A stretch of DNA of 21,927 nucleotides, taken from positions 1 to 21,927 of IMG/VR virus record IMGVR_UViG_3300031775_000657; one strand, given 5' to 3'. A program made the translations under genes and the position numbers. A model generated the notes under the pieces. It ran no database searches. It had not been told where the DNA came from and saw only the letters and a program-made list of their open reading frames with translations. Every line of letters begins with the position of its first letter. Position 1 is the first letter of the stretch. Shown here in pieces: positions 1 through 18,928 of the stretch. Origin of the DNA: a virus.

Positions 1-3000
1 GGTGCTGTGGGTACACCTATTCGTTGGACTGGCCGATCTTTATGGGGATCTTTAGAAGCGTCGCAAGATTTTCTTGGCCATAATATGCGTACTTACATGC
101 TTGCTCAAGAAGATACAAAAATTTGGGATCCCACATGGTTGAACCCTGCTAAATATTTTGGTAAAGGTGGTTTCCGTGACAGAGCCAAAGAAGCGGCGAG
201 TACATGGACTGCTGAAGATATAGACAAAATAAACGATACTTTTGCTGACGAGAAACGACGGTGGTTAGCTACAGAAACTCTCGGATACGGCGATTCAACA
301 GGACGTTTAAGCGATCTTATTGATGAACAATTTGAAGAAGAAGGAATAGTTGCAGATCAATATAGTCCTGAATGGGGTGAACGATACTTCGAGTTGTACG
401 ACTTGATGAACACACAAGAATGGGCTGAACTTTACAATGAGATAGGGGCAGGAGCTTACGCAGGTGCCGCTCCCGGCTCTATGGAAAGTTTTATTTTAAG
501 AGATTACAACAGTATGCAACAATTCGGTTTTATGAAAATGAAACCCGGAAGTGCGCCTGCACAAATGTTGCAAACAACTGTAGGTATGACTTACAGAGTT
601 TTTTATGATCCTGTGAACATAGCGTTTATGGGTGTAGGCACTGTTGGTCAGGCTGGTGTTATTGCTGGTAAAGCGATGTTGACTCAAACAGATGATATGG
701 TCAGATTGCTTCGTATGGCTAATGCTACTGATAATGCCGACGATGTATTGAGACTAAAAGATACATGGCGTGTAGGTGATGATGGAATATTCACAGCAGA
801 ACAACTGGGTCTTGAAGTCGGAGAAACTGTAAAGGTTAAAGATCTTGTACGTGCAGTAAGACAGCAAGCTGAAAAAACTCAATACGGTGATGCTATTGTT
901 AATGCCGCTAAAGGAACTAACAGACCAACAACCGCACAGGTTGCTACAGCGTTAAAGTACGGCAGGTTTAGTTACTTGGCGACTCCTCAATCTATTCGCG
1001 ATGTTATGTTTTTGCGGAAGATTAAACAAATCAACGGTACTTTAGGGTGGTTGTCTAAATCTTATAAGCAACATTTTTATTTGAAGACTTCTATTGAAGC
1101 GATAATGAAACTCTCTGGAGATGGGAAAAGCTTCAATTACAGTGTTACTGAAGGTGTAACGAAACTTAAACGGGTTGACTATCACCAAGCTAGACAAATG
1201 GTTTTGGATCGGATTGAAGCATTAGAGGGCGCTGGAGTTCGTGCTGAATATGAAACTGCGTGGCGTAATTTATATAATACAAATGCTGGCATTAGAAGAC
1301 TTTTGCCTTCTATGACAAAATGGCAGATAGAACGGTTAGAAGCAGGGTTAGAAGGATTCGGCGAATTTGATGACATGCTTGATTTCTTACAACAAAACCT
1401 TACTGAAGTTTTAGCGCACACAAATCAGCTTTCTCCTAGAGGATTCAGATTCCCTACAGTTTCAGCTAGACAAAGATTTCAAGGCCGCGAAAAAACTCGT
1501 GTTATGGACGCATCTGATAAAGGCAGGAACTTCACTCCAGAACAGATGGACAACATGCTCGGTCATGGTGTTACACAAATGAGACGAAGAATAGATGACA
1601 CAGCAGAAGAACTAGCTCGTTCCATTGAACAAAACTTCGAGCCGTCCCCTGCATCTTTAGTAGACGACGGTGTTATAACACCATTAGATAACATTTTGGC
1701 ACGATTAAATGATGAACAACGGGCGATGCTAAAGGAAGTATTCTCTGATCCTGATAGCAGAACTGTTCAGATGATAAGAGAAATTGTTCGGACTAGAGGT
1801 GTAACCCCAGTACCTCTTGGCGAAGAAGCAAAAGTTCGGATGATAGACCAGATTCTTAGACGTAACTATAAAACAAATATTAAGTTCGCTGAAGGTGTAA
1901 ATGCTGATAAAAGATTAAAACTCTTATCAAACTTTATTGACGAACTAATGGAAACAACTGTTACCAAACTCAAAAAAGAATATGAGATTAATGACATTTA
2001 CGGTCTGTCTACTAGACCAGATGGGTTAGGGAGACTAAGTAGATACGGGCGCGCAAGTCGAGAATTTGTTACTAACCCATTACGAGCGTTTGGTATTCTT
2101 TTAAGAAACGCAAGGTACGCGCCTAAAGGTGGACCTATAGCATTAGATACAGTCGGCGGGTTTGAGAACATGATGCGCTACTTTGACATGGGGTACTTAG
2201 CTCATTTACCTGATGAAGTCATCGAAGCATACCAAATAAAATATTTGTATGGAACTCCGGGTGAACGGTTAAATATTGCTACAGAGTTTGTATCTGACTT
2301 TTTGTCTAACAGCGGACTATTAAGTATAAGTGATCCATCTATTGAACGAATGTATTTACAGTGGGTTAAACGCATGGAACACACATACGGGGTGTCAGGT
2401 GCAGATGCTATCAACGTAATGGAAGATACGAACAGAGCTGTGTTTAAAAGCGAGATGGCTAATATGATGCTTCTCCCAGACATTCATCAAATGATGAAAG
2501 CGTCACGGCATTTAGGTTGGTGGAGAAGAATAGGATTTTCGCCTCCTGCGTCTGTTATTAATTCTATGGTTGGTACTTATTGGAAACCTGCCGTGTTGAT
2601 AAGGATGGGGTTCATTCCTAAGACTGCTGGCGAAGAAGCGTTTTCTTTTATTTTACGTAATGGTGTTTCAGATTATTTAGCGGCAAAGCTTGGGCCAAGA
2701 GGCGCATCTTTATATAAAGCATATGATCCTCGTACTGGTAAAAGAATATGGTATGACGGTAAGAACCTTCAACAATTAGAGCGCTACCGACGAGCTAGCG
2801 TTATTAAACCTATTTTATGGTATTTAAGATCTTTTGGCCCTAAAGAAAATAAGTTAAGGAAAATTGCTTCACAACAATTAGCTCAAGAACACGGTCAAGC
2901 TTGGCTTGCTTTTTCTGAAGTACAACAACAAGATCTTATTTATAAAAGATTAAGCATGATTTTAAATAATGCTTCGGATATCCCAGTTGCAGGCAAAGCA

Positions 3001-6000
3001 CACACATTTAATAAATGGTATGTTTATAACGTCAACATGTTTGATGAATGGGCTAGGCAACAGCATCGTTGGTATTGGGAGAGAATCGGTGAAAAATTTC
3101 ATGGTCGGAGCAGATCGTACAATCCTGTAAGACCATCTACACCAAATGTTACAAATCCTAAAAGAACTACAGGAAAATTTACTGATAGAGTTACAGATCC
3201 TGAGACTGGTATACAATACGATTTACCACCAGAACAATGGGTTAAAGCTAAACAAAGAACAGACCGTCTAGCTGAAAAAGTAGCAACAAATCTTGTTGGC
3301 CCTGAACACGTTGAGTACTTAGTTAAAGCCGCGCGTATATGGCATCTTCATCCAACAGCGCGTAATGCTAGTGCGAATGTTATGGCTAGTACCGTATCAA
3401 AAGGATATACAGGTGAGACTACGGCTGAACAATTAGCAAGAGAAGGTATCGACTATATTGATGGCTTTTCACCAGATCATGTTCATTTGTCGTTAGGTTA
3501 TGATAGACACATTTTTGAAACAATGCCTAATCCAGCACAAGTTGGTTTAGCGGATACATCACCGATGCTAGGTGCAGATTTCCCAAGAGCTACTTACATT
3601 CTTGGGTGGCGAATAGCAGATGATCCTGCGGCTTTTGAAGCGGCAAAAGTTCTTTTAAATGCTAACCCTAAAGTCGCTGGCGATAATGCGCGTAACACGA
3701 TTAGAACAATTTTAGGAACGGATGCAGTTGCTAAAGATCCTGCACAGTTTTATCAAATGTTTGTACGCGAACTTGATTACATGCCGTTTGATCTTAAAGG
3801 TATTTTAAGACAAGCACATAGACGATCACCTAATGGTCACGCATGGGACAATGCTTCACCTTTAGTAGCGCCGCATAACGCACAAGAAGCAAAACTTTTA
3901 TCTAAAGAAGAACGTATGCGTAAAGCAATGTCGGAAAGAGATTACGCTGAAGCACGTAGAGTAGGTGCTGAAGTTCCGGCAGGACATGAATGGAATTGGT
4001 TAGATGATTTATCTGATGAAGAGTTCGCAGTATACGAAAGAATCAATTACATTTTTTCACAAGCAACAGACTGGGATCCTAGTGTTGTAGAAAGAATCCA
4101 ATTAGGTGAAGCGTTAAGTTACGAAGAGCTTTTCACAATGCCGTCAGAAGGTGCATTAGCGCAAATGTTTAGTGACGATATGTTAGCTAAACCGTTAGAT
4201 CAATGGATTGATGTTTACAAAACATTAGCAAGAGATCGTACATTAACTGCCCGTGAAGCTAATGCTATTAATCTTTCTCATTGGACAATGTTCCCTCAAA
4301 CATCACGATACGGGGTGCATAGATATATACCAGTTAAACCTTTAGCTGGATTAGATAAATCCGCTCCGTTACCCGGAATAGGATCAAACACTAAATGGGT
4401 TCCTGCCGCTGAAGGTACTGCTGATGGTGCGTTAGATTCGATACGTACTGGCAATACTTATATTCATACAGGCGACACTCTTGTACCAGAGTTGCCTGTA
4501 CCTCGGTTGGATATTTTCAGAAATGATTTGGATGGGCAAAATATTTTAAACGGTTTGCTTGTTGGTAATAAAGAACAGCGTTTAATGCTTTACAACATAC
4601 AAGATATGGATATGCATATCTTGACAACAATGGGTGATGATCCTGCTTTATTGAGAGCGCATATGGGAGAAGCATCGTATTCAAAACTTATTCAACCAAT
4701 GTACTCTTCACAAATTGATGAGTCTGCGAGGATGTCTAGTGCAGTTGAAGGTGGCAGGCCAGCAGATCACACATCTCTTTATGTGCCGATTGTAAGAACA
4801 GAAATAGTTGAATCGTTTGTATCTACGTTACAAGATCCTGATATTTCTATAGAATTTGCAGAATTTTTAGCTAACAAATTGCGAAGCATCCCTAACCAAA
4901 GAAGAGCCTTAACTACTTCTCTTCCTATAGGAGAATTAAATAATCCTGAATACGCTAAGTTGTTTGCTGATGAAATAGTAGATTTACTGAATCCTCTTAA
5001 TGATCCTATTAGTACAGGGTTAGGCCCAGAAATTTATTCGACTGTAGCTGACGATGCTTTAGAGATGATGTCACTTGTAGATGACACAAACGGTGTGTAC
5101 TTCCCAACGATGATTATGTTAAATGATCCTGATACAGCGCGTGTTGTATCTGAAGCAATCACTGAGTTTGCTTCTGTTAAACAAATGGGTAAAACAGGTA
5201 TTACTTTTACCGACACTCCAGCTTTAAGTTTTGCGAGAGTTGATGTTCATTCAAATGCTTTCACTGGCAAAACAAAAATGAATCTCCCTAAAGAAAATAG
5301 TGTTTTAGGTATCCCTGATGGTACAGAAATACAAGTTACAGATGATGTTGTGGCAGAGATACAAGGTTTTAATCGAGATATTAAACCTAATTACAGACAC
5401 GATCCTTACGCTCCTAATAACCATCCGTTGTACCGTTCACCAGATATAGGTGTGTATGGTACTTCTCATAGAGCAGATTCGATTTGGCCTGCAAGCCCGT
5501 GGGAAGGAGAAGGATTCGCTTCACGCCCTGTGTTTGGTACAAGCGACATGGCTAGTCTTGAGTTGCATCCAGTTGTAAATGGTTCTGATGAATTTATAGA
5601 GATCAGTATTCTTAGCGGTCCTAACAAGGGTGCGCGCAAAACAATAAGTCAAGAAGAGTACATGATTTATATTGAGGATTGGCCGAAAGTTCGTGCTATG
5701 ACATCAGACGATTTCACAGCAGAAATTTTATACCCTCACGATCTTGACCCTACTGGTAAAGCGTATGGCATGTCTAAAATGGGTATGAATAGTTTGCGAA
5801 GAGGCGCATCTGCTACTGATCCTATTCCTATTTTCATAAATTTTGACGCTATTCTTGGGTGGGCTAACAGAAGAATAGTTACACAGGGTGCAGATTCATA
5901 TAGTTCTATAGCTATACAAGCATTACACGAAATGGGGATTGACCCGAATATGATGTTTGCATATTTGAGCAGTCCAAACACAAAGATTATTGCAGGAGAA

Positions 6001-9000
6001 CTTTCTTTTGCTGACGAGTTTTTAGAACTTGCTAACAAATGGTTGAAAAATCTTTACGGAGATGAAGTTGATCTTCTTACTACAACTTCTCGTTTAGAGG
6101 ATTCACTAGCTGAAGCGGCATTTATTTGGGAACATGAGATTGCTCATGCCAGATTAAACCATGTAAGAAAAGAAAGACGAGTCAATCCTGTTGCAGAATT
6201 AACAGTGACAGGTGTTAAAGAACAAATGGCTAACAGTATGGCTCTTAAAAAAATGGGAATCCCCGACGAAGCTCTTTCAACTAATCCAGAAGAAATCATG
6301 TACATGATCCCTGACGACCACCAATGGGTTGAAACAGGACGGTTCTTAGGTACCGGAGGTACACAAGACCAGTTGATACGCAAAGGAGCAAACGCGAAAA
6401 CAGACGGCGTATGGGATTATGCTACAAAACCATTACGTGCAAAAGGGATAGACACTACATCAATAGGTGATGTTTCATGGCCGCTACTAGACAATATTTT
6501 GGATCCTGATATAGCAAGATTTAATATGACTGCACGATTAGATGATATGCCTTGGGAAGCACACGGACCTCAAGCTGTGATTTCGTCGCAAGGAGCGTTC
6601 CAAAATATAGTTAATACCTTCTTTGAAGGTATAGCTTCACCGTTAATGAACGCTCTTATTAGAGAACCATTGTGGTTAGAAAACTTTGCTCTTGCGTTAA
6701 GAGAAACAGAATTTATACGAAGAACATTTCAGCATTCACCAACTGCGTTCACAAACCTTAAAAGCGCTAAGGGTCTTGTAGGACGAATGATACGTGTTGA
6801 CGATATAGGTCAAGTCCGGTCAGATGATTTAGAAGAAATAATTACTCATGGCATGATGAATCCTGAGCAGATGCCTGATGTTGTTCATATAGGAATGCAT
6901 GACATGGTAGCTACAGGAACTATCACAGCGCCAACAGAACCTAACTATATGAAAAAACTTGTTGTTGGTATTATCAACAGGGATCGCAGTGAAGTAGCTA
7001 AATATTTAGAACCAGCGATAGAACAAAAAGTTCTTAACAGATTTAATCCTACTTCTTTAGGTAAACAAAATGCAGATGAGTTCATGCTTGTTGTTGATGA
7101 CTTTATGGATTGGGCATGGCATGAATCACATGTAATAAACGAACAAATAAAAGTAGCATCATCTAACGCTGTTGGTAAAACAATCCCTTGGATAGACGAT
7201 CATACACTCCGTCCAATGTTCCAAGAACTTGTAGGGAATGTAATACCATTCTGGTTCGCCCACGAACAATTCCTTAGAAGAATGGCACGAGGGTTAATAG
7301 CAAACCCTCAAATGTACAGAAACTTAGAAGCTGGAATAACTGTAGGCGGAAATGTTGGTTTCATCAGGGAAGACAGCTTCGGCGAGAAACGCCTGTATAT
7401 GCCAGTGTTACCTACGGTAGCAAATCTTGTCCACGGAGGGTGGGATGGCGTATCAGATTTAGCTGGCAAATTGACGGTACCTCAAGTAGAAGCCGCAATG
7501 TTATGGGCAGGAGATTCGATACTGCAACCGTGGGAACAACCTATTGGTTGGCCTATGAAAAGCATGTTACCCGGATGGGACGCAAGCAAAGTTCATCAGC
7601 CCGGAGCGGGTCCGATAATTACAATTCCTCTTGTTGGTATATCTCAAATGCTTCCTGAGTTCGCACCTTTATTTGCTGATCTAACATACTTCAGGTATAG
7701 CGGTTCTACAGCAGTAGATGAGAACTCTGCGTTGGCGAGTATGCTTAATTCATTAGTCGGCATTGGTTTTATTAAACATGTGATACCTGCTGGTATGACA
7801 AATATAGGCATGACTGAAAGTCCTTTCGGTATGAAAGACGCAGGTGAAGCGTTAACTGCTGGTGCTGTTCTTATGAATATGTTAGGTGAGTTACCTGACG
7901 AAGAATCTTACTACCTTGACAAAGCAGAGTACCAAGAAGGTATCAGACAACACGCTAGAAACATTTTAAACATGCGCGCATTTACTTGGTTTTGGGGGCC
8001 GGGTGCCGCACAAATGGAACCGTTGATAGGTGATGAACCATTAAGGTTCAGTCGAGAGTTTCAAGACATGTTGGATGTTGCTTCACGTACAGGTGCGATG
8101 GGGTGGGAAGAACTTTATGTAGAATTGTTTGAAAGGTATGTCAATGACGCTAAAGCAGAACACGGAGAAGACTGGAGATTACATGCACCTCCACACAGAT
8201 TCCAGTTGTTTGTTACCGGCAAGCAAACTACGACTGCCACCGGAGCGCCTCTCCCTCCGACTGAACCTGCGTTGGAATACATTAATGATAATGAGCAATT
8301 TATTACTGATTATAAGTTCGGTGCCTCTTATCTTGTTCCTGCTAGTTGGACAGAAGATGAAGAATATTCAGCGTTATCTGCACAAAGAATGGTCGCGTTG
8401 GATCTTAGGCACAGAATCGAATGGGATGATCTAGTAGAAAGCTGGTATTTGGGTGCAGATAATCAGGAATACCATTTGCGTACTGGTGAGATGGACAGAA
8501 TCATTTTAGATAATGATTATAAGATCAAACGTAAAGGTATTTACAGAGGTACAAGTTGGTCGAGTCAGGAAATTAAAAACTTTCAAGAGATTATTAAACG
8601 AGTTAAAGCAGAAAAAGAGGCTTTTGTTGAGAGTTTCACTAATCTTCACCCTATTTTTGCTTATGGTAAGTCAAATCCTTCTACTGCTGAAGGTAAAAGA
8701 GCTAGAACTATTGACGACTTTAAAGTAATCTTACAAGTATATGACGAAGCACCTGAACTAATACCTGAATCTGAAAATAGAGATGACATACTAGAGTTCG
8801 CAAGAGTTCTAGTTAGCTTATCGGAAACTATGGATGATTTAAAAAACAGGCAAGGTGGGACAGACTTAAGAAAACAAGCTAGAAGAAAAGCGGTGAATGA
8901 AATGGAGAGAATGAGAAGAGGGAAACCTTGGTTAAATTCTTTATATTACACTGTTGGTCGTCCTCTCATTGGGGAAGATGAGTTTCTTAAAATTGAATTT

Positions 9001-9036
9001 GATCCTTACTATGGAGTAGCTGATGGTATTAACTGA
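1..9036 (+). CDS. Giant virion (ejection/polyvalent-type) protein with ImmA/IrrE-like zinc protease motif, 5'-partial
   Basis: The reading frame is open from the window edge to TGA at 9034-9036, over 3000 residues. The true start is unknown: a GTG sits at nt 7, but the codons before it are also open. Residues below count from nt 7. Most of the protein is helical, charged and soluble-looking. H2043-E-I-A-H2047 is a zincin HExxH motif. About 25 residues on, KEQMAN (E2072, N2076) resembles the ExxAN third-ligand segment of ImmA/IrrE (DUF955-like) proteases. Near the C-terminus there are hydrophobic or amphipathic stretches, about 2412-2434 and 2574-2593. Phages carry such giant polyvalent or internal virion proteins that enter the cell with the DNA. 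Its place at the head of the virion-gene run and overlap with the next gene support that role. The virion location and ejection are inferred; the HExxH motif is seen directly. The first 2000 residues match nothing I recognise. Confidence 0.72.
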   Translation, partial: GAVGTPIRWTGRSLWGSLEASQDFLGHNMRTYMLAQEDTKIWDPTWLNPAKYFGKGGFRDRAKEAASTWTAEDIDKINDTFADEKRRWLATETLGYGDSTGRLSDLIDEQFEEEGIVADQYSPEWGERYFELYDLMNTQEWAELYNEIGAGAYAGAAPGSMESFILRDYNSMQQFGFMKMKPGSAPAQMLQTTVGMTYRVFYDPVNIAFMGVGTVGQAGVIAGKAMLTQTDDMVRLLRMANATDNADDVLRLKDTWRVGDDGIFTAEQLGLEVGETVKVKDLVRAVRQQAEKTQYGDAIVNAAKGTNRPTTAQVATALKYGRFSYLATPQSIRDVMFLRKIKQINGTLGWLSKSYKQHFYLKTSIEAIMKLSGDGKSFNYSVTEGVTKLKRVDYHQARQMVLDRIEALEGAGVRAEYETAWRNLYNTNAGIRRLLPSMTKWQIERLEAGLEGFGEFDDMLDFLQQNLTEVLAHTNQLSPRGFRFPTVSARQRFQGREKTRVMDASDKGRNFTPEQMDNMLGHGVTQMRRRIDDTAEELARSIEQNFEPSPASLVDDGVITPLDNILARLNDEQRAMLKEVFSDPDSRTVQMIREIVRTRGVTPVPLGEEAKVRMIDQILRRNYKTNIKFAEGVNADKRLKLLSNFIDELMETTVTKLKKEYEINDIYGLSTRPDGLGRLSRYGRASREFVTNPLRAFGILLRNARYAPKGGPIALDTVGGFENMMRYFDMGYLAHLPDEVIEAYQIKYLYGTPGERLNIATEFVSDFLSNSGLLSISDPSIERMYLQWVKRMEHTYGVSGADAINVMEDTNRAVFKSEMANMMLLPDIHQMMKASRHLGWWRRIGFSPPASVINSMVGTYWKPAVLIRMGFIPKTAGEEAFSFILRNGVSDYLAAKLGPRGASLYKAYDPRTGKRIWYDGKNLQQLERYRRASVIKPILWYLRSFGPKENKLRKIASQQLAQEHGQAWLAFSEVQQQDLIYKRLSMILNNASDIPVAGKAHTFNKWYVYNVNMFDEWARQQHRWYWERIGEKFHGRSRSYNPVRPSTPNVTNPKRTTGKFTDRVTDPETGIQYDLPPEQWVKAKQRTDRLAEKVATNLVGPEHVEYLVKAARIWHLHPTARNASANVMASTVSKGYTGETTAEQLAREGIDYIDGFSPDHVHLSLGYDRHIFETMPNPAQVGLADTSPMLGADFPRATYILGWRIADDPAAFEAAKVLLNANPKVAGDNARNTIRTILGTDAVAKDPAQFYQMFVRELDYMPFDLKGILRQAHRRSPNGHAWDNASPLVAPHNAQEAKLLSKEERMRKAMSERDYAEARRVGAEVPAGHEWNWLDDLSDEEFAVYERINYIFSQATDWDPSVVERIQLGEALSYEELFTMPSEGALAQMFSDDMLAKPLDQWIDVYKTLARDRTLTAREANAINLSHWTMFPQTSRYGVHRYIPVKPLAGLDKSAPLPGIGSNTKWVPAAEGTADGALDSIRTGNTYIHTGDTLVPELPVPRLDIFRNDLDGQNILNGLLVGNKEQRLMLYNIQDMDMHILTTMGDDPALLRAHMGEASYSKLIQPMYSSQIDESARMSSAVEGGRPADHTSLYVPIVRTEIVESFVSTLQDPDISIEFAEFLANKLRSIPNQRRALTTSLPIGELNNPEYAKLFADEIVDLLNPLNDPISTGLGPEIYSTVADDALEMMSLVDDTNGVYFPTMIMLNDPDTARVVSEAITEFASVKQMGKTGITFTDTPALSFARVDVHSNAFTGKTKMNLPKENSVLGIPDGTEIQVTDDVVAEIQGFNRDIKPNYRHDPYAPNNHPLYRSPDIGVYGTSHRADSIWPASPWEGEGFASRPVFGTSDMASLELHPVVNGSDEFIEISILSGPNKGARKTISQEEYMIYIEDWPKVRAMTSDDFTAEILYPHDLDPTGKAYGMSKMGMNSLRRGASATDPIPIFINFDAILGWANRRIVTQGADSYSSIAIQALHEMGIDPNMMFAYLSSPNTKIIAGELSFADEFLELANKWLKNLYGDEVDLLTTTSRLEDSLAEAAFIWEHEIAHARLNHVRKERRVNPVAELTVTGVKEQMANSMALKKMGIPDEALSTNPEEIMYMIPDDHQWVETGRFLGTGGTQDQLIRKGANAKTDGVWDYATKPLRAKGIDTTSIGDVSWPLLDNILDPDIARFNMTARLDDMPWEAHGPQAVISSQGAFQNIVNTFFEGIASPLMNALIREPLWLENFALALRETEFIRRTFQHSPTAFTNLKSAKGLVGRMIRVDDIGQVRSDDLEEIITHGMMNPEQMPDVVHIGMHDMVATGTITAPTEPNYMKKLVVGIINRDRSEVAKYLEPAIEQKVLNRFNPTSLGKQNADEFMLVVDDFMDWAWHESHVINEQIKVASSNAVGKTIPWIDDHTLRPMFQELVGNVIPFWFAHEQFLRRMARGLIANPQMYRNLEAGITVGGNVGFIREDSFGEKRLYMPVLPTVANLVHGGWDGVSDLAGKLTVPQVEAAMLWAGDSILQPWEQPIGWPMKSMLPGWDASKVHQPGAGPIITIPLVGISQMLPEFAPLFADLTYFRYSGSTAVDENSALASMLNSLVGIGFIKHVIPAGMTNIGMTESPFGMKDAGEALTAGAVLMNMLGELPDEESYYLDKAEYQEGIRQHARNILNMRAFTWFWGPGAAQMEPLIGDEPLRFSREFQDMLDVASRTGAMGWEELYVELFERYVNDAKAEHGEDWRLHAPPHRFQLFVTGKQTTTATGAPLPPTEPALEYINDNEQFITDYKFGASYLVPASWTEDEEYSALSAQRMVALDLRHRIEWDDLVESWYLGADNQEYHLRTGEMDRIILDNDYKIKRKGIYRGTSWSSQEIKNFQEIIKRVKAEKEAFVESFTNLHPIFAYGKSNPSTAEGKRARTIDDFKVILQVYDEAPELIPESENRDDILEFARVLVSLSETMDDLKNRQGGTDLRKQARRKAVNEMERMRRGKPWLNSLYYTVGRPLIGEDEFLKIEFDPYYGVADGIN

Positions 9037-10516
9037 CCAAGATTGGGAAGACGCTTATCAACCTATACATCCTTCTAGGAAAGACAGAAATGTTTTAAAA
9101 ACTGGTAGAGAAGCATGGGAGATTTTAAAGAATTTTATTTTAGGTCAGCGTTTCGTTTTTTCAGATAATATTTCTATAAGCGCTATTATCCAAAACCCTG
9201 ATATATACAATCAATATGCATCGCAGGTGGAAGGCGGTGCGTTAATAAGTGGTCTTGATACTGCAATAGGTAGTGGAGCTTTTGAAGATGGGATATTGAC
9301 ATTAGTGCGTGACGGTGAAGACGATATTGATTTACAGTTGACGTTTTTAGAAGGTGATGATTTAGGCATAGGTGCAGTCGGTGACGTTGATGATCTTTTA
9401 ACAGGATTACATTTTGGAATGCAAAACATTGAAGCATTTTGGAATGGTTTAGATCAAGGTGAGCGTGATCGTATGCGTGCTTCTTTATGGTATTCAGGTT
9501 TCTATGGTACCGAGAACATGCCTTCTTTTGGGCAAGCTTCAGATATAAGAGATAACGGAGCTTTAGTTAATTTAGCTGACAAAATGTTACAAGCAGGTGG
9601 CACAGAAGATCCTCTTAGTATTTTCACTAAAAGTGAAAAAGAACATACTGATGAACTTGCTTCTAAATATAAAGATTCTAAAAGTACTGCGATGCGAGGA
9701 CTTATCTCTGGGTTATATGAAACAGACCCTTACTCTGGATTAACTGAAGCTGATCGCATGACATCAGATTTGTTGGATGTTTACGAACAAGAAACAGGGT
9801 TACGGTTAGGTGAAGAACAACTCAAAAATGCTTTCGACAAGATGATTGATGCTCGTATAGGCACAGAAATCTCAGCGGAGAATCGTTACGGTGCGGATGT
9901 GATGCAAACAACAGATCTTTTTCTCGGTCACTATTTTAACAATGGATATTACACCCCTCAATGGCAACAAGTAATGGGGCGTGAACGATTAGATAGCGAT
10001 ACGTTTGTTGATAATGCTGTAAAGATGGGGCTTACCACACGGCAAGAAGCCCGTCAGCTTCGCAACAAATACGAAAAGAATTTTACAATGTCTCCCAATA
10101 AGAGAGATTTTGATTCAGAAGACATGCAAAGGTATCTTGCTTTAGAACAACAAGTCATCCGAGAAAGTTTCGCTGGGATATTTCAAGCTACTGGTGGTGA
10201 TTTATTAACATCAAGTTATCTCTTTAACGAAGGTATAGGTAACAGTTTCTTCACAAAACAAAACATGGGGTATGAAGATATTCAAGGAATGATCGACAGC
10301 ACTAACGCTCATCTTGCATCAGGATCAGATGTTGTGAGTATGTCACCAAGTGATATAGGTAACACACCAGAAGACATAGCTAGACGAGCATTGATAGGCG
10401 CGAATGTTAATTTGGATACTGGGCATAAAGCCGCTGGAGCCGCTAAAGCATTAGCGCAAGGAATGGTTCAAGGCTGGGGGATAAACAGTCCTTATGATTA
10501 CAGGTCGGTGACTTAA
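9023..10516 (+). CDS. Predicted internal virion protein, 497 aa, unrecognised family
   Basis: It starts at ATG 9023, inside the last 14 nt of the giant gene, with GGAG at 9013-9016 six bases upstream. It ends in TAA at 10514-10516, overlapping the next ATG by one base. I do not recognise the family. The protein is acidic in its first third (residues about 80-125 rich in Gly, Asp and Glu) and then mostly helical with many charged residues. It has no signal peptide, membrane span or catalytic motif that I can see. Its position between the giant protein and a lysozyme-domain protein, with translational coupling to both, makes an internal core or ejection protein the most likely role. That role is inferred from context only. 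Confidence 0.8.
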   Translation: MVLTDQDWEDAYQPIHPSRKDRNVLKTGREAWEILKNFILGQRFVFSDNISISAIIQNPDIYNQYASQVEGGALISGLDTAIGSGAFEDGILTLVRDGEDDIDLQLTFLEGDDLGIGAVGDVDDLLTGLHFGMQNIEAFWNGLDQGERDRMRASLWYSGFYGTENMPSFGQASDIRDNGALVNLADKMLQAGGTEDPLSIFTKSEKEHTDELASKYKDSKSTAMRGLISGLYETDPYSGLTEADRMTSDLLDVYEQETGLRLGEEQLKNAFDKMIDARIGTEISAENRYGADVMQTTDLFLGHYFNNGYYTPQWQQVMGRERLDSDTFVDNAVKMGLTTRQEARQLRNKYEKNFTMSPNKRDFDSEDMQRYLALEQQVIRESFAGIFQATGGDLLTSSYLFNEGIGNSFFTKQNMGYEDIQGMIDSTNAHLASGSDVVSMSPSDIGNTPEDIARRALIGANVNLDTGHKAAGAAKALAQGMVQGWGINSPYDYRSVT

Positions 10517-13014
10517 TGAGTTTTGAAGATTACGTAGACGAAGATTTATACCAACCATCTCAAGCAGAGCTTGGTGACACACGCCCAATAATACAAAGCA
10601 CTAGCAGAGATGAGAAAGAGTTCTTAACTAATCTTATGGCAGGCGCGTTAATAGCTGGTCATAAAGAAGCTAAATCAATTCCGGGTATACGCCCAACTAA
10701 AGAGGTAACCGTTTCAGATGATGAGATCATTGAACAAGCTGACGTATGGTTGCGTCAAGTAGGTTTGACTTACGATAGTTTGACTTCTTTAATGACTCAA
10801 TCTGACGCACAAGACGGTCACGATTGGGCGTGGGAACTGACACGTAAACCTGAAGCGCAATGGAATGCAGGTAGTATTTTAAAAACTGCTAACCCGTTTA
10901 ACACAGCTATGGATGTTATTACAGGCAAGCCGGGTGCTACTCAGGAATCCATTAAACAGCATGGGGTTAACCCTTATTCTGATAGCACTGATTATATGGG
11001 CGGTGCGCTTACTGGTTTAGACGCGTTGGATATCGCTAGTCTTTGGCCTATGTATAAGGGGCCGATGTGGGTGATGAAAAATCTTATGGCGCGTATGGCT
11101 CCACGTAGAACTGTGGCGCGTCGTGGTAGCGATGATTTGTCTCGTGTACTCACGCATAAGTATTTAAGACCGAGAGGTATGCACTCTGGTATAGGTTCCG
11201 CGGATAGTAATACATTCCCACCGTATGACAGAACAAGCAGACGTCATCCTCAACAAATAGAAGCTGAAATAGACCAACTCCCAGTTGGCTACCAACAACA
11301 TGATGCGCCAGATTGGTACCGCTACGATGGACAGACTAAACCTGAAGAAAGAGTAGGTGCTGAAAGAGATCATTATTTAAACATGATGGATGAAGCAGAA
11401 TATAACGATTATGTGGCTTACCAAGAAGGAAAGTTTGAAGATAGTTATGATTGGCGGCAAGGCCCAGAATCAGTAGATGAAAAGCAAGCGGTATCAGATT
11501 TAGGAGATGAGTTGTATGAACAATTTAATCCTGCTAATCAGTTCCCTAATCCAAATCGAATGATGGACCGACGAAAAGAAGTGTTAGAAAATACTCAACA
11601 GTATAAACCTACAGTCGATGAATTCGGCAATGAAATAGACATACCTAGAGGTCCTTATCCAATGGATTATGGTTATCAGATCGACAATCCTTGGATTAAT
11701 TTTACGGATGAAGTCGCTACGAATCGAGTTTGGAGCAAAGGTGATGTTCGAGGGTACCGACCTACTGGCGAGTACGTTAATGGTGTCGGTTTTATAACAC
11801 GCGACCAATACGGAAATGTTGGACCTCCTTATCCTTGGACGCGACCTTTACCAGAACAAATAGACATAAACAATCTTCAAGCCACAGTGTTTGATGTACT
11901 CGACGAATTTAATGTTCAATACAACCAAGGTGCGCTCGGTCAAGTAATAGAAGAAGGCGGTGTTGAAGGGCTTGTAGAATCTCTTCTTAAACAACCTCAT
12001 ATCGAAATGATGTTTCCGGGTAAGTTACGAGACATTCTTAAATTAAGCGATAAAGAATACTCACCGTTTATTAAATGGTTAGCCGCCGCGAGTCTTATAG
12101 CCGCACCTTTAGGTGTAAGAGATGTAGCTAGTAACAAGGCTGGCCCTAACCAAGAAGATAAGTCCGGTACTGTTTTTGAAGGACTCGACGAGTCTTCGAT
12201 GCTTCAAACAATGATGGAAGACGCAGGTAAACAAGGTCATAGAATGTCGATTCTTATGGGTCGTACTAGCAAAGAAATGTTAGATCCTGTATGGGAGGCT
12301 TTAGTTTCTGCTTACGGTGAGGATTTCGCTAAAGAAGTTATGGATTATCCTAGTGAAACTAATCCTCTTGTAACAGGTAATGCAATTATACTTTCTTATC
12401 CTACTGAAGAAGCTGAAGCGTGGGTTGCAAGGAATGGCCCTCAGTATGGATTCTTTCAGAATAATGAACGCCCGTCAGAAGTTACATTCGGCAAGAGAAG
12501 AACATCGCAATCTGGTAATTTTGGTGATGTGTTAAGTACTGTTTTGAATGACCAGCAACCTATGATGCAGGAACCTGTTGAGTTCCAAGATTCTTTTGAG
12601 GTTCTGCAAAATAGAGGGCAGTTGTCTAGTTCAGAGAGAGCTATTTGGGCTAATCAATTCTTACAAGGGATAGATGCACCTATTACAGCAGATAATTTAG
12701 ACACGGTTGTTAGTTGGATTCATAATGAGAATGGTTCTAGTTTTAATCCTATTAATACTACGTGGGGTAAATCACATGATGAGTGGCCTGTTATTAACGA
12801 AGATGGTGTGAAAGCGTATCCTGATTGGAACACAGGGCTTCGCGCTTCTGTGGCAACTATACAAGAATCACAATATTCTGAGATGTTGGACGCGTTAAAA
12901 CGAGGCACTACTTCTCAAGAGTTTGGTGGATTGCTTATACCTACTCCGTGGGGTACTAACCATTTCCATAATCATCCTGATACTTACGATTACGTGGAGT
13001 TATTCAATGAGTGA
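10516..13014 (+). CDS. Virion-associated lysin-like protein with C-terminal lysozyme-like domain, 832 aa
   Basis: Start ATG 10516 overlaps the previous stop (TAATG). The C-terminal part, about residues 705-815, has the pattern W734-x3-E738-x5-N-P-x-N-T-T749, then V765-K-x-Y768, G774 and Y787. I recognise this from lysozyme/transglycosylase-like domains at the ends of phage tail and secreted proteins in Gram-positive hosts; E738 is the likely catalytic acid. Just before it, residues about 590-660 (TGNAIIL, W636, YGF around 644-646, SEVTFG 654-659) follow the layout of M15 D,D-carboxypeptidases but lack the zinc-binding His and Asp residues. A hydrophobic stretch lies at 518-534. The middle (about 215-430) is acidic and rich in Tyr, Pro and Asp. 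Likely role: local peptidoglycan opening during DNA entry. The lysozyme call is moderately secure, the M15 resemblance weak. Confidence 0.75.
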   Translation: MSFEDYVDEDLYQPSQAELGDTRPIIQSTSRDEKEFLTNLMAGALIAGHKEAKSIPGIRPTKEVTVSDDEIIEQADVWLRQVGLTYDSLTSLMTQSDAQDGHDWAWELTRKPEAQWNAGSILKTANPFNTAMDVITGKPGATQESIKQHGVNPYSDSTDYMGGALTGLDALDIASLWPMYKGPMWVMKNLMARMAPRRTVARRGSDDLSRVLTHKYLRPRGMHSGIGSADSNTFPPYDRTSRRHPQQIEAEIDQLPVGYQQHDAPDWYRYDGQTKPEERVGAERDHYLNMMDEAEYNDYVAYQEGKFEDSYDWRQGPESVDEKQAVSDLGDELYEQFNPANQFPNPNRMMDRRKEVLENTQQYKPTVDEFGNEIDIPRGPYPMDYGYQIDNPWINFTDEVATNRVWSKGDVRGYRPTGEYVNGVGFITRDQYGNVGPPYPWTRPLPEQIDINNLQATVFDVLDEFNVQYNQGALGQVIEEGGVEGLVESLLKQPHIEMMFPGKLRDILKLSDKEYSPFIKWLAAASLIAAPLGVRDVASNKAGPNQEDKSGTVFEGLDESSMLQTMMEDAGKQGHRMSILMGRTSKEMLDPVWEALVSAYGEDFAKEVMDYPSETNPLVTGNAIILSYPTEEAEAWVARNGPQYGFFQNNERPSEVTFGKRRTSQSGNFGDVLSTVLNDQQPMMQEPVEFQDSFEVLQNRGQLSSSERAIWANQFLQGIDAPITADNLDTVVSWIHNENGSSFNPINTTWGKSHDEWPVINEDGVKAYPDWNTGLRASVATIQESQYSEMLDALKRGTTSQEFGGLLIPTPWGTNHFHNHPDTYDYVELFNE

Positions 13015-16248: not shown

Positions 16249-16423
16249 GACCGTTAAGTTAATCACAGCTATAACAGCCTTGTTGGTTGCTATAGGTACA
16301 TTAATAGGGACAATCACTGTTACTTTAGGGAAGAGTGACCCTAGTCCTTATCAGGGTGGTATGACCATAGTTTTAAATAGTCCGGAAGCCTATGCCGAAT
16401 TTCTTTCTAACCATCCGGGTTAA
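16241..16423 (+). CDS. Small membrane protein, 60 aa
   Basis: Start ATG 16241 lies eight bases inside the previous gene and the stop overlaps the ferredoxin start by one base, so all three are coupled. The product has one N-terminal hydrophobic helix, about residues 5-29 (VKLITAITALLVAIGTLIGT), and a short polar C-terminal tail with a Gly-Gly and an Asn-Ser-Pro-Glu segment. No ribosome site stronger than GAAGAAA is seen. It could be a second holin, an antiholin or an unknown small membrane protein. It is not a recognisable family. Confidence 0.72.
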   Translation: MNKTVKLITAITALLVAIGTLIGTITVTLGKSDPSPYQGGMTIVLNSPEAYAEFLSNHPG

Positions 16424-16698
16424 TGAAAGTTTGGATTGACCAAGACTTATGCACAGGTGATGGACTCTGTGTAGAGATATGCCCTAGTCTTTTTGACATG
16501 CATGACGATGGTCTAGCATATGTTAAAGAAGCAGAATGGAAATCTTTATATGGGTCAGATAAATCTCGTACAGATAAAAGCACTCCTGTCTTACAAATGG
16601 CTGATGGAACTGCGACAGTCCCAGACGAACTCGCGGAAACGGCGATTGAAGCGGCAGAAGAATGCCCCGGAGAATGCATATTCCTTGAAATAGACTGA
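16423..16698 (+). CDS. Single-cluster ferredoxin ([4Fe-4S]/[3Fe-4S], Asp-ligand type), 91 aa
   Basis: Start ATG 16423 shares one base with the previous stop. C10-x2-D13-x2-C16-x3-C20-P and a distal C81-P match single-cluster bacterial/archaeal ferredoxins in which Asp replaces the second cysteine ligand, as in Pyrococcus furiosus ferredoxin. Expected ligands are C10, D13, C16 and C81. C20 and C85 may form a disulfide or be free. About 60 residues separate C20 from C81, against about 35 in the short family members, so there is an insert around residues 35-65. It would be a soluble low-potential electron carrier. No redox partner gene is visible here. It is the last gene before the capsid promoter, and the promoter overlaps its 3' end. 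The family call is firm; the partner and purpose are unknown. Confidence 0.88.
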   Translation: MKVWIDQDLCTGDGLCVEICPSLFDMHDDGLAYVKEAEWKSLYGSDKSRTDKSTPVLQMADGTATVPDELAETAIEAAEECPGECIFLEID

Positions 16699-17743: not shown

Positions 17744-18928
17744 ATGGCCGTAGTCGGTTATGGAGGTAAAGTAACCTCATACGATCTTGCCGTTGGCGTT
17801 AAGATCAACATGGATGAACTCATTTATATGATTTCACCAACAGACTCTCCGTTTATCAACGGTATTGGAACTGATGGAAGGCAACTTCTTTCAAGTTCTC
17901 CCGTAGATCAGCAAGAGTTTAAATGGATGGACGAAGAACTATTGCTTCCTCGTGCAACCGTAGCTGGTACAGGAGCCGCAGGAGCAGGCGCTACAACTAT
18001 TACAGTTTCAGCCGCCGACTCTTACAGGTTCCAAGTAGACGATCTTCTAAACATTGGTGAAGAAGACGCTACTGTCAATGGTGCCATTAAGAGAATCACA
18101 GCGATTAATAACTCCACTGGTGTTATTAACGTAGCTGATTGGGCTAATGGTTCAGCATGGCCAGCAACAACAGCCGCGCACGAAGACACAGTTATATGTG
18201 TTGGTACTGCATTGGTTGAAGGTTCCGATCCGGGAGAAGCACGTTCAGCAGATCGCACGATCCACTCGAACTACACGCAGATCTTCGGACCTACACCTAT
18301 CCACATGTCACGTTCAGAACAGCAGGTATCCCGTTACGGTGTATCTGATGAGTTCGCCAAACAAGTTTATGGCCGCTCAGTTGAGAATGTGATTACTCGT
18401 GAACAAGCATACCTTTATGGTAAGCCAGTAAACGATACTACTAACAAGCGCCGTTCAACTGGTGGCTTGATGAATTTCATTACTACTAACACTGACAGTT
18501 CTTCTACTACGTTGACTGTTGCGGCGTTAGAAGCTTTGATGCAGAAATGCTACAACGCAGGTGGTATTCCCGATCTTCTGATCGCTAATCCAGCTTCGTT
18601 TGCTACCTTAAACGGCACATCAAGTAATGATCGTGTCCGCACGATCATTGATGATCCTCGTCGTGGTCGCGTACCTGTCATGTCTGTTTTCACCGAGTTT
18701 GGTGAAACACAGTGTGTAAGGAACCGCTGGTGCCACTCTGAGAGTGCATTCGTAATCCAGAAGGAAAATGTTTCCCGACGGGTTATGCAACCACTCGTAG
18801 TCGAAGCTCTTGCTAAGACTGGCGACAGTGACAAGGTGCAAATTGTTTGTGAAGAAGGACTCCAAGTTAAGGGTCAGTCTCACATGGCAAGATTCACTAA
18901 TCTAACTGGCTACACGGACACTCCGTAG
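17744..18928 (+). CDS. Major capsid protein, DUF5309/SU10-type, 394 aa
   Basis: Start ATG 17744 has AAGGAG at 17731-17736, seven bases upstream, overlapping the previous stop. The pattern of DUF5309 capsid proteins (HK97 fold, as in phage SU10) is present. It shows an N-terminal arm with SPTDSPFINGIG, then a beta-rich inserted domain with Ala/Gly/Thr (about 75-155). After that come EGSDPGEARS, TQIF at 178-181 and S189 in a helix-starting segment, then the spine-helix region REQAYLYG and a C-terminal beta domain. It is the shell protein, made from the strongest ribosome site in this unit together with scaffold. A strong hairpin follows 14 nt after the stop. Confidence 0.9.
   Translation: MAVVGYGGKVTSYDLAVGVKINMDELIYMISPTDSPFINGIGTDGRQLLSSSPVDQQEFKWMDEELLLPRATVAGTGAAGAGATTITVSAADSYRFQVDDLLNIGEEDATVNGAIKRITAINNSTGVINVADWANGSAWPATTAAHEDTVICVGTALVEGSDPGEARSADRTIHSNYTQIFGPTPIHMSRSEQQVSRYGVSDEFAKQVYGRSVENVITREQAYLYGKPVNDTTNKRRSTGGLMNFITTNTDSSSTTLTVAALEALMQKCYNAGGIPDLLIANPASFATLNGTSSNDRVRTIIDDPRRGRVPVMSVFTEFGETQCVRNRWCHSESAFVIQKENVSRRVMQPLVVEALAKTGDSDKVQIVCEEGLQVKGQSHMARFTNLTGYTDTP

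Follow-up and report, generated by a model that had tools for sequence, protein, structure and literature searches.

A conserved zinc-protease-type domain, apparently carried as a movable accessory, in a giant phage protein encoded among head genes

Zincin-like domains are the most frequent domain in the polyvalent proteins of phages and plasmids, and either self-processing or attack on host proteins has been proposed for them (Iyer et al. 2017, PMC5512222). These metallopeptidase (MPTase) domains, after which PF18818 is named, combine HExxH with a distal Glu and lie inside very large phage proteins near virion genes, beside other conflict enzymes. Phage-borne NADAR and SLOG domains are believed to counteract NAD/ADP-ribose immune signals, in many cases from the virion (PMC9503650). 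An HExxH domain (C1) is also found within the N4 virion RNA polymerase, a phage protein of about 3500 aa that is ejected into the host (PMC12633501). Among cellular-type peptidase families, ImmA/IrrE (M78, PF06114) has HExxH followed by ExxAN about 25 residues on, and M48 (PF01435) and DUF2201_N (PF13203) share a similar HExxH helix sequence.

The domain described here resembles the polyvalent MPTase domains in motif and setting, with the other conflict enzymes found in its relatives. It differs from them in having no match above threshold to PF18818 or to any other Pfam or PHROG model, and in belonging to an uncatalogued phage family in which it travels with NADAR-like, SLOG and DUF7831 segments. 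Zincins in polyvalent proteins were already known in 2017; the present family and its mobility look new.

We analysed a stretch of viral DNA of 21,927 nucleotides (the window), in which the initial annotation had described a predicted virion-borne giant protein of more than 3000 residues. The left edge of the window cuts the giant ORF, and an overlapping contig, L001, which is identical over 16,498 bases, holds the start. The complete protein in L001 has 3189 aa, which bears out the size. The gene lies between the portal and major capsid genes, and this gene order, together with published work on polyvalent proteins, suggests that the giant would be delivered with the virion. The features of the giant and its cluster are as follows.

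1..9036, plus strand: giant protein ORF, C-terminal 3011 of 3189 aa, start upstream of the window.
2167..2991, plus strand: stretch of conserved backbone (YWKPAVLIRMGF..GEEAFSFILRNG) that matches positions 812-1090 of the family profile, E 2e-35.
4726..5172, plus strand: weakly conserved backbone segment 5' of the variable region, family profile positions 1403-1530, E 1e-5.
5173..6588, plus strand: variable region holding the zincin, about 470 aa vs about 260 in the family profile.
6589..8976, plus strand: C-terminal part of the conserved backbone (FFEGIASPLMNALIREPL ... IDDHTLRPMFQELVGNVIPFWFAHEQFLRRMAR), matching positions 1790-2523 of the family profile, E 9e-106.
10516..13014, plus strand: 832-aa protein, the cluster's second large one, with homologues at the same place in sister phages.
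17744..18928, plus strand: major capsid protein of SU10 type, 3' of the giant gene, PF17236 E 6e-58, PHROG major head protein.

The full gene order is large terminase subunit, portal-like 604-aa protein, small protein, giant, four large ORFs, 158-aa protein, ferredoxin, 188-aa ORF, FmdB-like protein and SU10-type capsid protein. Strong family matches among these neighbours were obtained for the ferredoxin and the capsid protein only; we base the labels "terminase" and "portal" on features of the sequence, on position and on weak similarity, and the 604-aa protein matched other phages weakly. Sequence collections were scanned by conserved peptide patterns, and relatives of the giant were found at 22 loci with a conserved C-terminal motif and at 53 loci with a central motif; scans of this kind speak for presence and not for absence elsewhere. 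Because several contigs from different samples are nearly identical, locus counts are not lineage counts, and lineages are defined here by pairwise divergence and context, not by a tree. Profile matches place the giant as a backbone member of a phage protein family of 2.5-4.2 kaa, and the analysis defines this family together with its cargo slots. The giants diverge fast, with about 25-35% identity where alignable, compared to 64-85% for the capsid protein of the same relatives.

The initial annotation had also reported HEIAH followed about 25 residues later by KEQMAN. Both are present, and the spacing from the second His of HEIAH to the Glu of KEQMAN is exactly 25 residues. HEIAH occupies residues 2045-2049 in the frame opened at base 1 of the window (starting at 2043 if numbering begins with the GTG at base 7, as in the initial annotation) and residues 2223-2227 of the complete protein in L001. 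The motif and its surrounding domain map as follows.

5719..6381, plus strand: zincin-type domain, 221 aa, approximate limits, homologous to segments of L229, L043, L271 and L273/L274.
6133..6147, plus strand: HEIAH, with two His predicted to bind zinc and the Glu that would act as general base; the preceding E is also invariant.
6160..6162, plus strand: third His, located 5 residues past the second of the ligand His and kept in every intact copy.
6220..6222, plus strand: the Glu in EQMAN, predicted to be the third zinc ligand; every intact copy has it, and a degenerate lineage has Ala.

HExxH by itself is weak evidence. In 20,000 shuffles of the window giant, any HExxH occurred in 7.3%, a hydrophobic/small HExxH with a Glu 19-30 residues later in 0.4%, and HExxH combined with ExxA[ND] in 0.03%. 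Stray, unrelated HExxH strings occur in the giants of L043, L224, L226/L227 and L238, as would be expected if the window motif were likewise a non-catalytic coincidence, lying in a helix that reads PWIREIL in other family members. A weak alignment of HEIAH to this helix does exist (p about 0.01, about 1% of shuffles equalling it), and we considered HEIAH as a mutated form of it until copies of the domain in L229 and L043 showed the domain elsewhere.

Conservation in these copies was decisive. The closest relatives beyond the identical contig, L002 and L003, keep the motif and are little informative, because they are 80-90% identical. The L229 domain is 35% identical to that of the window over 114 aa (E 8e-11), with the motif HEIEH. 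The L043 copy has HERAH and EIEAN (E 2e-11) and sits inside a different protein of 1484 aa. A profile scan of 50 family contigs added a copy in L271 with HEMQH and EVPAN (E 6e-15), and weaker relatives with HELAH in L273 and L274, which entered the alignment on E-values of about 1e-5 only. Identity between the zincin lineages is 20-30%, and nine columns (G, F, L, E-H-E-x-x-H-x4-H ... E) are invariant across the eight intact copies, which come from five lineages. A literal ExxAN is present in the window, L043 and L271. Across the domain dN/dS is 0.12-0.20.

In a sixth lineage (L218, L223, L226, L227 and L231), the domain reads TQMSR where HEIAH would stand, and Ala replaces the distal Glu. All four catalytic residues are gone together, and the W-E and A-N flanks are retained, which fits a functional metal site and its decay. 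Homologues from five diverged lineages all keep H, E, H and the distal E, so the motif is more than chance, and these data support a real zinc-protease-type (gluzincin-type) motif with a conserved distal Glu. The conservation of the four residues anticipated by the initial annotation thus holds within the zincin family, and the giants of most relatives are without the domain. With invariance in five lineages, joint loss in a sixth, and homologous copies that sit in another slot and in other proteins, a chance HExxH is scarcely credible and is already largely refuted.

A DNA pattern for WEHE[hydrophobic]AH matched the known lineage alone, the zincin region had zero matches among 50,697 phage records, a 2111-aa piece of the giant gave matches of E=6 at best, and no convincing cellular homologue of the zincin was seen among 301 Chloroflexota genomes. 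Another 74 viral loci were retrieved with the pattern HExAHAxLxH, many of them ImmA-like or M48-like by eye, and were set aside.

We then compared the eight-copy alignment by hhalign with peptidase families fetched without motif bias. M78 received 68%, DUF2201 22% and M48 (HtpX-type) 9.5%, against at most about 1% in a shuffled-alignment null. An early preference for DUF2201 (35%) had weakened to the 22% after more homologues were added, and profile scores of 59-88% against pattern-picked sets were left unused as circular, because the motif had selected those sets. The M78 match spans 48 columns only, over HExxH and ExxAN, which stand at the M78 family spacing of 25 in the window, and leaves the N-terminal part unaligned. 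Judged by sequence profiles, the active-site part of the zincin therefore looks most like ImmA/IrrE among the three families, in two helices that are common to many gluzincins.

The initial annotation had called the motif ImmA/IrrE-like, and a true M78 protease would be expected to act early in infection, inactivating a host or prophage repressor of XRE type. The top rank among three unbiased families and the literal ExxAN in three copies agree with this. However, Pfam scans gave no PF06114 match, so that M78 membership is unproven; the sole Pfam peptidase match was to M48 PF01435, below threshold (E 0.007-0.08, 14-17 bits vs a cut-off of 20.3), and DUF2201_N likewise stayed under its cut-off. 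Moreover, the similarity is confined to the two shared helices, the domain has an extra invariant His at +5 where the fetched M78 sequences mostly have LH at four, and it is embedded in a giant virion-cluster protein with no HTH or XRE partner recognised. The zincin has no candidate repressor linked to it, and none was recognised among the scanned ORFs of the window. The resemblance thus stands at the level of the nearest of three families, and a genuine M78 repressor protease is distinctly unlikely.

Pfam scans that admitted E-values up to 10 did not match PF18818, a result for one model and not for all 12 published clades, and searches of the zincin against NCBIfam, PHROGs and PDB profiles returned no convincing match above threshold. 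AlphaFold2 runs on 394 aa and 221 aa, with three close sequences each, reached pLDDT 31 and 38, too low for either model to weigh for or against a zincin. The domain-only model (pLDDT 38, from this shallow alignment) contained no beta sheet, and Foldseek on that model returned noise. As to N4, the likeness lies in an HExxH domain within an ejected protein of similar size; there the domain is a fixed companion of its polymerase, in contrast to the movable zincin of the window. Pfam and PHROGs gave no polymerase match in the window giant.

The location of the domain was assessed against a profile of eleven zincin-free giants, which reveals a common backbone. Net inserts of about 960-1600 aa occur in some thirteen loci (near-identical contigs counted separately), at profile positions 1263-1372 or 1484-1687; further loci carry smaller inserts. 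Domains recognised in the inserts are cpYpsA (E 1e-19 to 1e-29), DUF7831 (E 1e-32 to 1e-34) and a 2OG-Fe(II) oxygenase (E 1e-25), along with NADAR-like segments whose matches all fall under Pfam's curated cut-off. In the window lineage, the stretch at profile 1529-1792 exceeds its length in the family by 215 residues and contains the zincin. The flanks of this variable region gave no significant alignment that would fix exact insertion boundaries, and we infer an insertion from the extra length and from the presence of the domain elsewhere.

In relatives, the zincin usually adjoins a NADAR-like segment. It lies in the first slot in L229, beside DUF7831 and a very weak NADAR match; it is flanked by NADAR-like and cpYpsA domains in the 1484-aa protein of L043, a putative counterpart, judged by position and N-terminal similarity, of the 832-aa protein in the window; and it is accompanied by a NADAR-like segment in L271. 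The degenerate copies occupy the first slot of giants of 3.0-3.9 kaa, and in the two that were scanned (L218 and L223) they occur with an AlkB-like 2OG-Fe(II) oxygenase, DUF7831 and a NADAR-like segment. Sequence comparison thus indicates that the zincin is an accessory, movable module, found at other positions or in other proteins of related phages. No second effector-type domain was recognised in the window giant, so the cassette argument depends on the relatives. As a separate observation, the giants of L046, L047 and L050-L052 reach at least 4.1-4.2 kaa, with 1.1-1.6 kaa of cargo; cpYpsA lies towards the cargo end in L046 and L050, the two scanned, and the remaining cargo is mostly unannotated.

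Taken with these data, our main reading, to which we give a probability of roughly one half, is that the zincin is a zinc-dependent metallopeptidase cargo of about 200 aa in an injected, virion-associated polyvalent giant, most likely hydrolysing host proteins. A compact metallopeptidase domain with HExxH and a distal Glu would be set as accessory cargo in a fast-evolving giant; the giant, as a virion-associated polyvalent protein, would enter the cell alongside the DNA; and inside the cell, probably at the onset of infection, the zincin would hydrolyse at least one host protein, such as a regulator or a defence component. For the zincin and its giant, we infer zinc binding, catalysis, packaging, injection and target alike. 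More tentatively, and somewhat below even odds, the giant could be an effector-delivery chassis, an injected conserved backbone with at least two hot-spot slots that swap zincin, cpYpsA-SLOG, NADAR-like, DUF7831 and 2OG-Fe(II) oxygenase modules. The zincin would then be an anti-defence protease, usually in a cassette countering NAD/ADP-ribose defences and decayed to a pseudo-enzyme in one lineage. Its companions are enzymes that would be expected to act against the NAD/ADP-ribose signals of host immunity.

The same arrangement could serve self-processing, in which the zincin cuts the giant or other large polyproteins before packaging, in the head or after injection, and frees pieces. This has been proposed for polyvalent-protein zincins generally, with P1 DdrB as a processed example (PMC5512222), and the zincin of L043, between NADAR-like and cpYpsA domains, occupies a natural site for a releasing protease. 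However, the degenerate lineage has rich cargo yet a dead zincin, and L042, L046 and L050 carry cargo in which no zincin was found, so cargo does not need the zincin. There is also no known cleavage site, and N4 vRNAP is packaged uncut despite its HExxH domain (PMC5512222). We consider self-processing rather unlikely, though the strongest of the alternatives; the cargo-rich relatives with a dead zincin or none modestly favour a host-directed role. The choice between self-processing and host attack, a question for polyvalent zincins at large, becomes testable in this family, where otherwise comparable giants have active, degenerate or absent copies; a further natural comparison comes from the placement of one module in several slots and several proteins.

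The position of the gene within the head cluster would also suit a morphogenesis protease, one that acts during assembly to process proteins of the head or the virion interior, and processing of virion proteins was among the roles first suggested. However, an intact zincin is missing from relatives that share the gene order and have homologous capsid and portal genes, and assembly in the family at large therefore does not need one. Because the domain is absent or dead in these relatives, a general assembly role is unlikely, and because most related phages are without it, so is a universal role in virion-protein processing; we regard a morphogenesis protease as very improbable. Host-protein hydrolysis by an injected cargo domain thus remains the preferred reading.

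Several further observations were made around the cluster. A 4Fe-4S ferredoxin is encoded among the head genes (window 16423-16698; PF13459, E 1e-18), and no match to it was seen in the sister contigs compared. In L031 (11602-13293), a homologue of the 832-aa protein contains a YHGT...GHGIY stretch that resembles an ADP-ribosyltransferase motif, with no Pfam match. L024 (OX376640.1), an unannotated phage record, encodes a distant portal homologue and, downstream, a 1772-aa protein without HExxH. No relative was found in 392 other Dehalococcoidia genomes, and the L031 contig was assigned by binning to a Dehalococcoidia (Chloroflexota) MAG recovered from the Red Sea, which is only a hint of a Dehalococcoidia host for the phage family, because binning may err. 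The window phage is probably marine.
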